32,346 nucleotides of DNA from the NCBI GenBank assembly GCA_012519455.1, contig JAAYQE010000008.1, positions 1 to 32,346 on the forward strand, written 5' to 3'. The notes beneath the pieces were generated by a model. It did not search any database, had not been told where the DNA came from, and was given only the letters and a program-made list of their open reading frames with translations. Shown one piece after another: positions 9,754 to 14,195 of the stretch (position 1 is the stretch's first letter; the number at the start of each line of letters is the position of its first letter). Source of the stretch: Syntrophomonadaceae bacterium (lineage in GTDB: Bacteria > Bacillota > Ch66 > Ch109). Position numbers and translations under genes: made by a program.

Positions 9754-12700
9754 TTAAAATAAACTAAGCTGATCTGATTCAGGTAAACCGTTAAAACATC
9801 CATGTTCCCGCATAACTTCTATAATATTCTTGCTCACCCGGGTCCGACTATGCAGGTCCTCTACGGAGGTAAAAAACTGCTTTTCTCTAGCTTCAACAAT
9901 ACTGGCCGCGGCGGTCTGGCCTAATCCCTGTAAAGCAACTAAAGGAGGTAACAATCCCTGAGGCGTAATAATAAAACGGTACGCATCTGATTTTTCCAAA
10001 TCGACATTCCGGAATTTCAATTTTCTTTCGTACATCTCTAGAGCTACTTCGAGGATCGCTAATAGACTTTTTTCCTTAGCGGTAGCCTCATTTCCCTTTT
10101 GTTCTAATTCCTCAATTTTACCCTGAACCTTTGCACTGCTCCCTACAATTAATTGGGCGTCAAATTCGTCAGCCCGTACGGTAAAAAAACTGGCATAAAA
10201 AGCTTCTGGATAATTTAATTTAAAATAGGCGATACGAAAAGCCATGGTCACGTAAGCTACGGCATGTGCTTTAGGAAACATATATTTTATCCTTTTACAG
10301 GAACCAATATACCAGTCCGGGATTTGCTGGCCACGCATTTTTTCTTCAAACTCGCTTTTTACCCCTTTCCCTTTACGTACGTCTTCCATGATTTTAAAAG
10401 CTAAGGAAGGCTCTAGGTCTTGCTGAATCAAGTAGGTCATGATATCATCTCGTGTCGAAATGGCTTCGCTTAGTTTAACGCGGCCACTTTTTATCAATTC
10501 CTGGGCATTATTTAGCCACACATCGGTCCCGTGGGAGAAGCCGCTGATCCGGACCAGATCGGAAAAAGTTTGCGGTCGGGTGTCTTCCAACATCTGCCGC
10601 ACAAACCGGGTACCGAACTCCGGAATACCGTAAGTACCTACTTCCGAACGAATTTGCTCCGGGGTAACACCCAGTGGTTTTACACTAGAAAACAGCTGCA
10701 TGGTCTGAGGCTCGCCCATCGGTATCTGCCGCGGGTCGATACCGGTCAAATCCTGAAGCATGCGGATGACCGTTGGATCATCATGACCTAGAATGTCTAG
10801 TTTAACTAGTTGACTACTAATGGCCTCGTAGTCAAAATGGGTGGTAACGGTCTCGGATTTTGCATCGTCTGCTGGTCGTTGTACCGGTGAAAATTGATAG
10901 ATATCATTACCTTTCGGGACCACCATTAATCCTCCTGGATGTTGCCCGGTAGTTCGTTTAACCCCGGTACAGCCTTTAACCAGGCGGGCTATTTCCGCTT
11001 CCCGGGCGCGTACCTTATGTTCGTCTAGATACTTTTTGACAAAACCGTACGCCGTTCGTTCCGCAATGGTAGCAATGGTCCCCGCGCGAAAAACATGTTC
11101 CCGGCCAAATAGTTCCTCAACATAGCGATGTGCGCGCGCCTGGTATTCACCCGAGAAATTAAGATCAATATCGGGTACTTTATCTCCCTTAAACCCCATA
11201 AAAGTCTCAAAGGGAATTTCATGTCCGTCTTTATTCAGCGGGGTCTGGCATTGGGGGCAGTTTCGTTCGGGTAAGTCTGCGCCACAGCCTACGGATCCAT
11301 CGGTAATAAATTCATTATAATGACATTTAGGGCAAAGATAGTGGGGGGATAGCGGGTTAACCTCCGTAATCCCGGTTAAAGTTGCGACCAGGGAAGAGCC
11401 TACAGAGCCCCGCGAGCCGACTAGATATCCATCTTCATTAGATTTACGGACCAATTTATGGGCAATTAAATACAAAACCGCAAAACCATTATTAATTATT
11501 GCGTTTAACTCTTTTTCAATGCGGTCTTGTACTAGCGCCGGCAGCGGATCTCCATATAGTTCCCGTGCCCGTTGGTAAGTCATTTCCGTAACCTGGCTTT
11601 CGGCGCCGTCAATTACGGGAGCGTGTAGATCTTCGGGTACCGGGCGTACTTCTTCTATCTGGGAACAAATGTGCAAAGGATTATCAATTACGACCTGGCG
11701 CGCAATATCTTCTCCCAAATAACTAAACTCTTCTAACATCTCTTCCGTCGTTCTAAGATAAAGAGGCGCCTGTAATTCAGCATCCTCAAAACCTTTACCA
11801 GTCTGCAAAATCCGGCGGAAATGCTCGTCTTCCGGATCAAGAAAATGTACATCTCCGGTCCCTACTACCGGCTTACCCAGTTTTGCTCCCAATTCCACCA
11901 AGGTACGATTAATTTTACGCAGATCATCCATGCTTTCTAATTGCCCATTTCGCATCAAAAATTCATTATTACATAAGGGTTGAATTTCAATAAAATCATA
12001 GAAAGAGGCGATCTCTTCCACGTTTTCCGGGGAATCCTTGCGCAGCAAGGCTTGCATTAACTCGCCGGCTTCACACGCCGTTCCCAAAATTAAACCCTCC
12101 CGGTAACGTTGAATTTCCTGACGGGCAATCCGGGGATGACGATAAAAATTATGGAGATGAGAATTACTAATCAATCGATAGAGGTTATATAGACCAGTCT
12201 GATTCCGGGCCAAAATAATGATATGATAAGTCCGTTGACGAACTTTTTTCTTTTTACTTTCAGCTGCACTTAATTCTTCCGTAAGATAACCTTCGACACC
12301 GTAGATTACTTTGATCCCGTATTTCCGACCCCACTCATAGGCTTCGGGAAAAGACTGTACAACCCCGTGATCGGTTATCGCTACCGCGGGATGACCCCAA
12401 CTGGCTACCCGCTCCATCAAAGCTTTGATCTCTACTAATCCATCCATGGAACTCATCTTCGTATGCAGATGCATTTCCACTCTTTTCCGGGGTGCCTCAT
12501 CTTTACGGATCGGGGCTACTCCAGCGTTTATATCCTGAGCCAGTAAAGTCAGCTCTTGAGAATAGCGATCTACCTGTGCGGCTCCCCGAACGATAATCCA
12601 AACCCCGTCGTTCAGGTGTTCCAAAAGCTTTTCTCGCTCTTTTTTTTCTACAAAGATTTTTACGGTGATAGAATCTTTATTATCCGTTAAATTAAAGATA

Positions 12701-13503
12701 ATTAGAGTACGGTGGCTCCGTAGTTCGCGAATCGATAGATCAAAAACTCGACCCTGTACGGTTACGGATTTTTCTTCATCGATTAATTGATTAAGGGGTA
12801 GCGGGGGCGTATTGATCTTTTTACCCAGCCAAACTGCCCCCGAAGTTGCCTTTTTCTCCTTTATCCCCCCGTTGGATCGACTTGCTTCGCTCCCTTGCTC
12901 CGTAACCGCATTAAAGCCTCGCTGCATAACCAACGGTTCTTCTTCAACTGGGGTTAAGGCTGACGCGGTTGTTTTCCAGGTAATTTGCGGACACCAAGCT
13001 AAATTATGCTCTAACCACTCCGCTAATAACTTACGCGCCCCTTTACCTTCTAACCATTGTACGGCCATGGGGCTAGATAAGAGAATACAAAGACGATCGG
13101 TATCCGCTAGCTGAATGGTTGAAGCCTCTAACCAGCCGCGTAAATAGGGGTTGGCCTCAATGATCTGGGTAACATAAGACGACCAGTTTTCGCGCAAAAC
13201 CTCCGGCGCTCTAAGAGGGCCATAATGGTAACGAACTTTCCATTCTACCTTACGCAGTCCAGAAACCTGACCTTGCCAGATGGCACTGATCTTTTGTAAA
13301 CACCCTACATCTACGGGTCCATTTAATAAAATATGTATAATCCAAGTTTGCTTGGCGCGATCTACTTCTACCTGTTCAATCTGGGCTTCTTTTAGGACTC
13401 CCAGAGCCGCAGCCGGTAAGGATAAATTATCAAGCCAGTGACTAAGGTCCCTGGCTTCTTCCCGGGATTCAGGCCCGGTCCTGATCATGTTATCACTCCT
13501 CAA
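9754..13503 (-). CDS. polC: DNA polymerase III subunit alpha, PolC type, apparently lacking the exonuclease insertion
   Basis: 1249 aa; OB domain, PHP motifs (EMHLHTKMSSMDG, ITDHGVVQSFPEAY, GTGDVHFL), PolC core GSRGSVGSSLVATLTGITEVNPLSPHYLCPKC, DKVPDIDLNFSGEYQ, C-terminal ESDQLSLF clamp-binding motif. About 190 aa shorter than B. subtilis PolC as I recall it. Confidence 0.97.
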   Translation of the reverse strand: MRSDNMIRTGPESREEARDLSHWLDNLSLPAAALGVLKEAQIEQVEVDRAKQTWIIHILLNGPVDVGCLQKISAIWQGQVSGLRKVEWKVRYHYGPLRAPEVLRENWSSYVTQIIEANPYLRGWLEASTIQLADTDRLCILLSSPMAVQWLEGKGARKLLAEWLEHNLAWCPQITWKTTASALTPVEEEPLVMQRGFNAVTEQGSEASRSNGGIKEKKATSGAVWLGKKINTPPLPLNQLIDEEKSVTVQGRVFDLSIRELRSHRTLIIFNLTDNKDSITVKIFVEKKEREKLLEHLNDGVWIIVRGAAQVDRYSQELTLLAQDINAGVAPIRKDEAPRKRVEMHLHTKMSSMDGLVEIKALMERVASWGHPAVAITDHGVVQSFPEAYEWGRKYGIKVIYGVEGYLTEELSAAESKKKKVRQRTYHIIILARNQTGLYNLYRLISNSHLHNFYRHPRIARQEIQRYREGLILGTACEAGELMQALLRKDSPENVEEIASFYDFIEIQPLCNNEFLMRNGQLESMDDLRKINRTLVELGAKLGKPVVGTGDVHFLDPEDEHFRRILQTGKGFEDAELQAPLYLRTTEEMLEEFSYLGEDIARQVVIDNPLHICSQIEEVRPVPEDLHAPVIDGAESQVTEMTYQRARELYGDPLPALVQDRIEKELNAIINNGFAVLYLIAHKLVRKSNEDGYLVGSRGSVGSSLVATLTGITEVNPLSPHYLCPKCHYNEFITDGSVGCGADLPERNCPQCQTPLNKDGHEIPFETFMGFKGDKVPDIDLNFSGEYQARAHRYVEELFGREHVFRAGTIATIAERTAYGFVKKYLDEHKVRAREAEIARLVKGCTGVKRTTGQHPGGLMVVPKGNDIYQFSPVQRPADDAKSETVTTHFDYEAISSQLVKLDILGHDDPTVIRMLQDLTGIDPRQIPMGEPQTMQLFSSVKPLGVTPEQIRSEVGTYGIPEFGTRFVRQMLEDTRPQTFSDLVRISGFSHGTDVWLNNAQELIKSGRVKLSEAISTRDDIMTYLIQQDLEPSLAFKIMEDVRKGKGVKSEFEEKMRGQQIPDWYIGSCKRIKYMFPKAHAVAYVTMAFRIAYFKLNYPEAFYASFFTVRADEFDAQLIVGSSAKVQGKIEELEQKGNEATAKEKSLLAILEVALEMYERKLKFRNVDLEKSDAYRFIITPQGLLPPLVALQGLGQTAAASIVEAREKQFFTSVEDLHSRTRVSKNIIEVMREHGCFNGLPESDQLSLF

Positions 13504-13517
13504 AACTCTAACCGTTT

Positions 13518-14195
13518 TTAATCCTGATGTTCTACTTTAAATACGCCGGAAACCCCGTAAAGTTTATCCGCTACCACTTTAGGCTTGATAAAAGGAGGAA
13601 TCCTAAGCATTAGATCTAATACTAATTGTTCTTCTTCAGCATGACTCAAAGTTAAATTCTTGATATGCACGCCATCTTCCCCCAGAGCGGTACCTACTTT
13701 TCCGATTGCCCCAGGCCGATCGTGGACGATAACCTTAAAATGTTTATACTCCCGCATACCGCTAAATCGTTCTTCTACTTTAAAGAAGTAAACCAACACC
13801 AATAGAATAAAACCGGTAGTCGCTACAGCGGCCATATATAAACCGGCCCCACAAGCTAAACCAATACAGGCCACCACCCACAAACCCGCCGCAGTAGTTA
13901 AACCGGTGATATTAGCCCCCTCCCGCATAATAGTGCCGGCCCCTAAAAAGCCGATGCCACTAATTACTTGTGCAGCTATTCGTCCGGGATCAGCGGTGAC
14001 CATGCTTTGATATTCATAAAATATTTCCTGGGAAATAACCATGGCTAAGGCTGACCCTACACAGACCAGGGTATAGGTTCTCAAACCAGCCGGTCGGGCT
14101 AAACTTTCTCGTTCTAACCCAATTAAGGCTCCCAGGAAACAGGCTAGGGCGAGTCGAATAATTATATCGTATTCATTCATAATTTTAATCGCCAC
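13518..14195 (-). CDS. mgtC: MgtC/SapB family protein with C-terminal ACT-like domain
   Basis: 225 aa; RLALACFLGALIGLERESLARPAGLRTYTLVCVGSALAM, ISGIGFLGAGTIMREGANITGLTTAAGLWVVACIGLACGAG; C-terminal VHDRPGAIGKVGTALGEDGVHIKNL. Confidence 0.93.
   Translation of the reverse strand: MAIKIMNEYDIIIRLALACFLGALIGLERESLARPAGLRTYTLVCVGSALAMVISQEIFYEYQSMVTADPGRIAAQVISGIGFLGAGTIMREGANITGLTTAAGLWVVACIGLACGAGLYMAAVATTGFILLVLVYFFKVEERFSGMREYKHFKVIVHDRPGAIGKVGTALGEDGVHIKNLTLSHAEEEQLVLDLMLRIPPFIKPKVVADKLYGVSGVFKVEHQD

Follow-up and report, generated by a model that had tools for sequence, protein, structure and literature searches.

A natural PolC without the DEDDh exonuclease domain and the repeated loss of this domain in Bacillota

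The window (the whole 32,346-nucleotide stretch of contig JAAYQE010000008.1 from a Syntrophomonadaceae bacterium) encodes a PolC replicase that lacks the DEDDh exonuclease domain and has an uninterrupted PHP domain with all of its metal ligands. Comparative analysis revealed that the DEDDh domain has been lost repeatedly in PolC. Judging from sequence comparisons, the PHP domain of exonuclease-less (exo-less) PolCs is most likely an active exonuclease that proofreads.

The polC gene and its uninterrupted PHP domain

The gene was found within a minus-strand block that we take to contain rpsB, tsf, pyrH, frr, uppS, cdsA, dxr, rseP, ispG, and proS, followed by an MgtC-family gene, polC, rimP, nusA, ylxR, ylxQ, infB, rbfA, nrnA, truB, ribF, rpsO, and pnp, an arrangement typical for Firmicutes. 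Gene names were assigned from ORF translations and general knowledge, except MgtC, which was assigned by Pfam. The proS-polC-rimP-nusA surroundings indicate that polC is in its ancestral place. The gene between proS and polC (window 13518-14195) encodes an MgtC-family membrane protein with a C-terminal ACT-like region. The features of polC are as follows:

9754..13503, minus strand: polC coding sequence (exonuclease-less PolC), 1249 aa, frame intact, TTG start as listed
13237..13434, minus strand: PolC N-terminal domain I (PF14480), residues 24-89 (Pfam, 7.3e-05)
12529..12765, minus strand: OB fold (PF01336), residues 247-325 (Pfam)
11686..12483, minus strand: uninterrupted PHP domain, about residues 341-606 (Pfam, solved-structure alignments, and model)
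11845..12471, minus strand: nine PHP metal ligands, H345, H347, D354, H379, E404, H427, C477, D551, and H553, all intact
12226..12291, minus strand: 22-residue loop, residues 405-426, GYLTEELSAAESKKKKVRQRTY, between PHP ligands 5 and 6
10120..11592, minus strand: polymerase core, residues 638-1128, with zinc-finger cysteines and catalytic motif DKVPDIDLNFSG
9757..9771, minus strand: C-terminal clamp-binding motif QLSLF of PolC (sequence)

An alternative in-frame ATG start is located five codons downstream of the listed TTG. The PHP domain extends over residues 344-502 in Pfam (PF02811) and over 341-606 in alignments to solved structures. The protein is of the PolC type, scoring 1482 bits against TIGR01405 (cut-off 1043) and 1615 bits against NF001688 (cut-off 873). 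Alignments to these NCBIfam models are split into two segments, with the exonuclease domain bypassed (e.g., protein residues 411-1249 against NF001688 599-1444). Pfam detected the NTD-I, OB, PHP, Pol3 alpha, finger, and HhH domains, in the PolC order NTD-OB-PHP-Pol3-HhH.

The first-pass annotation had proposed that the exonuclease domain is missing at 12200-12310, a region which spans the PHP junction, and this was confirmed. No Pfam match to the RNase_T/DEDDh exonuclease family (PF00929) was found anywhere in the 1249-aa protein, even at E<=1, and ligands E404 and H427 are separated by 22 residues, compared with about 205-239 in most exonuclease-bearing PolCs. The protein therefore does not have the typical architecture of a DEDDh domain inserted in PHP. 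A family search of the genome (G000; 2.37 Mb, 277 contigs, 97.6% complete) identified one PolC and one DnaE-type polymerase and no second polC. The PHP domain is likewise uninterrupted in three genomes of the same family or order (G001, G002, and G003), which makes loss of the segment in assembly very unlikely. Considering that this is the sole PolC of a 97.6%-complete genome, lies at the usual locus, and is matched in independently assembled relatives, it is neither an artefact nor a spare copy. An assembly or sequencing artefact, which the 277 contigs might suggest, has a negligible chance of being the explanation, given the intact frame and the same architecture in these relatives and in single-contig genomes.

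This PolC belongs to an already described class, the Exo-less PolCs of Clostridia and Negativicutes, which answers the earlier question of whether the variant is new. Timinskas et al. reported in 2013 that 86% of PolCs have the DEDDh-in-PHP architecture and that 6% lack Exo, nearly all of them from Clostridia and Negativicutes (16% in PolC+DnaE1 systems); such variants are still classed as PolC (PMC3919608). As in those proteins, we found NTD, OB, PHP, Pol3, and HhH, no Exo, and a co-occurring DnaE1, a label that rests here on domains, PHP, and C-terminal OB. Exo-less PolCs are common among its relatives, and the state is far commoner in our sample than in the 2013 survey. Among 398 genomes of the phylum, spread over families, PolC was present in 282 and absent in 116 at the threshold used. 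About 120 exo-less PolCs were recognized among the matches listed from spans and frame lengths, and about 15 more were confirmed, so that their share is of the order of 45% by an approximate hand count of the matches listed. The higher share is presumably due to the many uncultured families covered by our sample.

The protein resembles PolCs of the Bacillus subtilis/Geobacillus kaustophilus type in domains, motifs, and locus, and its core is about 55-60% identical to Bacilli PolCs; the B. subtilis type differs in carrying a DEDDh domain of about 213 aa between PHP ligands 5 and 6. The nearest solved structure, G. kaustophilus PolC (3F2B), is that of a construct engineered to lack the exonuclease (PMC3656037). 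This delta-N delta-Exo protein has the same uninterrupted PHP and was the top sequence and fold match, but it is man-made and also lacks the N-terminal domain, whereas the PolC of the window is natural. A fold search with an AlphaFold model of OB+PHP (built from seven sequences) returned 3F2B first; mean pLDDT of this model was 79, with low values around segment residues 120-130 and 325-356, where several metal ligands lie. Exo-deleted constructs of G. kaustophilus and Staphylococcus aureus PolC are active (PMC3656037), and the motifs of the polymerase, zinc finger, and clamp-binding segment are conserved here, so that the protein is very probably a working polymerase, as had been suggested.

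The sequence SKKKKVRQR within the loop had been regarded as a possible excision scar. This was rejected, as no Lys-rich motif is shared by the exo-less PolC loops compared; those of relatives are acidic, Gln-rich, or Pro-rich, with 12-22 aa in most. In the DnaE1-like polymerase of this genome, the corresponding loop has 20 aa, and the SKKKK stretch belongs to a variable loop of about DnaE1 length. Another exo-less PolC (L202, G069) has an 84-residue low-complexity linker rich in Ala, Pro, and Asp at the former insertion site, perhaps representing a young deletion.

The PHP site and candidate proofreaders

The PHP ligands of this PolC (HHDHEHCDH) form the nine-residue set HHDHEH[C/H]DH. In Mycobacterium tuberculosis DnaE1, 3'-5' exonucleolytic proofreading has been demonstrated for the PHP domain, whose nine ligands form a trinuclear zinc site (PMC5636811). 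All nine ligands of this proofreading site are kept, and the earlier view of a replicase "without a built-in proofreader" is thus unsupported. Proofreading is proposed to rest on a PHP with the same nine-ligand set in both cases; the mycobacterial enzyme is not a PolC, and activity was measured there whereas it is deduced here.

We compared PHP and DEDDh states in the 201 PolCs in which each of the nine PHP positions could be read, a sample which includes a few near-duplicate loci (e.g., L005 with that of the window, and L225 with L178). The PHP set was perfect in all 117 PolCs without an active DEDDh (113 with the domain absent and 4 with a dead domain), implying that no sampled PolC lacks both sites. 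Among PolCs with an active DEDDh, it was perfect in 67/84 and changed in 17/84, ten of the latter having only a D to N change and being Bacilli-like. Fisher's test gave 1.3e-7 for PHP versus DEDDh state, and 1.4e-4 outside Bacilli (changed in 0/117 vs. 7/49); both values ignore relatedness and are descriptive only. Four PolCs from outside Bacilli (L065, L067, L068, and L264) have a broken PHP metal site and an intact DEDDh, the mirror image of the PolC in the window. It is about as plausible as not that the two proofreaders of PolC back each other up, so that either may be lost repeatedly and never both, and that PHP is the sole replicative proofreader across many anaerobic Bacillota, often in genomes without any DEDDh.

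The PHP site is also kept in most exonuclease-bearing clostridial PolCs, and its conservation is thus partly the default. The ligands may persist for structural reasons or another activity; a pyrophosphatase activity is reported for the E. coli DnaE PHP (PMC4822814). The intact ligands and DnaE-like loop length suggest, as the most economical reading, that the PHP of PolC took over together with that of DnaE1. We consider it probable as a whole that DEDDh was lost in an ancestor and that the PHP of PolC, helped by the DnaE1 PHP, proofreads. The PolC of the window would then be a normal clostridial-type replicase whose DEDDh was lost from PHP in the ancestor of the group. After the excision, the PHP fold would be continuous, with E404 and H427 connected by a short loop on the surface, as in DnaE1, and the metal-dependent nuclease in the PHP of PolC would proofread, aided by the intact PHP of its partner.

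The main alternative is that PolC has been demoted: DnaE1 would perform bulk replication and its own proofreading, and the exo-less PolC would be an accessory enzyme on its way out. This was raised by Timinskas et al. (2013), since some Clostridia have DnaE1 only (PMC3919608), in line with the absence of PolC from the 116 genomes mentioned above. The DnaE-type polymerase of this genome has DnaE1-like domains, an intact PHP with HHDHEHCDH, a C-terminal OB, and a QLSLF clamp motif (PHP set and clamp motif read by eye). Families f15, f35, and f71 include genomes with and without PolC, with PolC-bearing genomes being exo-less among the matches listed. On the other hand, the PolC core is under strong constraint (dN/dS about 0.05-0.10 within family f22), clamp, zinc-finger, and catalytic motifs are intact, the gene still occupies the ancestral locus, and nearly all sampled genomes of f15, f22, and f51 retain polC. 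We therefore regard demotion as unlikely.

Somewhat less likely still is proofreading in trans by a separate DEDDh exonuclease, either DnaQ-like or the nuclease half of a DinG-like helicase. Trans proofreading is known in other replicases (PMC12926913), and stand-alone DEDDh ORFs, about 180-325 aa long, are present in the exo-less genomes G005, G017, and G040. The sole PF00929 match above cut-off in the genome of the window comes from a DinG-like helicase of 971 aa, which carries the nuclease, with an intact DEDDh, at its N terminus; no link between DinG and replication fidelity speaks for its involvement. A stand-alone DnaQ was not detected above cut-off in this 97.6%-complete, 277-contig assembly, and of 42 genomes rechecked at E<=1, 38 with exo-less PolC show no PF00929 match above cut-off, bearing in mind that this profile can miss divergent DEDDh proteins. 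Six of the 38 are single-contig genomes (G018, G024, G098, G125, G168, and G192). If fork proofreading occurs in such DEDDh-free organisms, PHP is the obvious candidate.

Repeated loss and decay of the DEDDh domain

On the tree of the shared core, the Exo state changes at least 9-10 times, with 6-7 changes forced by well-supported branches; under the Dollo criterion, 17 losses were counted after midpoint rooting. The AU test (48 rows) rejected a single origin of the exo-less state, with p 1.7e-30 for grouping the exo-less PolCs in a single clade. Distances of the exonuclease domain and the core agree in clostridial exonuclease-bearing PolCs (Spearman rho 0.81), which favors joint inheritance over re-acquisition. 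Two PolC matches were detected in each of G331 (L211 and L212, both exo-less) and G294. In f15, f35, and f71, some species have no PolC, as if loss of Exo comes before loss of PolC.

Among the matches listed from family f22, the domain is kept wherever the junction is complete, with the sole exception of G101. In genus g91, two species (G129, L232; G246, L233) retain 198 residues of the domain, but none of the five catalytic residues is preserved, DEDHD reading AAGGE and AGGAE, respectively. In the third species (G101, L225; terminal branch 0.029), the domain has been excised in frame and only its ends remain (39 residues). The dead g91 domain has a dN/dS of 0.37 versus 0.10 for the core, compared with 0.084-0.107 versus 0.054-0.060 in three control pairs with active domains, indicating relaxed constraint. 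A second dead-domain lineage was found in Clostridia (L064 and L099), with a 210-aa exonuclease domain whose catalytic set is SRSTE or SRTFE. For Pol III alpha subunits it has been stated that PHP, and not DnaQ, is inactivated (PMC12926913); the dead DEDDh domains of G129, G246, L064, and L099 are exceptions that contradict this. A reasonable course of events is that DEDDh became dispensable, was catalytically inactivated, drifted, and was finally deleted in frame.

It has also been considered that PolC originally lacked Exo and that some lineages gained DEDDh by later insertion, as the PHP of DnaE is uninterrupted and several clostridial clades contain exo-less PolCs. This is very improbable in view of the intermediates of loss (both the four dead domains and the remnant ends in G101) and of the agreeing exonuclease and core distances. 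In addition, with a single split rejected, a late gain of DEDDh would require that identical insertions, or transfers, happened more than once, and our trees show no exonuclease-bearing clade nested among several basal exo-less branches. In one basal lineage, the domain may have been missing since a deep ancestor.

Implications for replication in anaerobic Bacillota

Beyond the class described previously (PMC3919608), our analysis adds the repeated loss of the domain, the intermediates of its decay, and the pattern in which the two sites are never both lost. The dead and excised domains found side by side in g91 offer a natural before-and-after comparison. If PHP proofreads, a large group of anaerobic Bacillota would copy its chromosome without DEDDh, the usual presumed source of fidelity, and the role of PHP in PolC would be directly testable in organisms that have no masking exonuclease.
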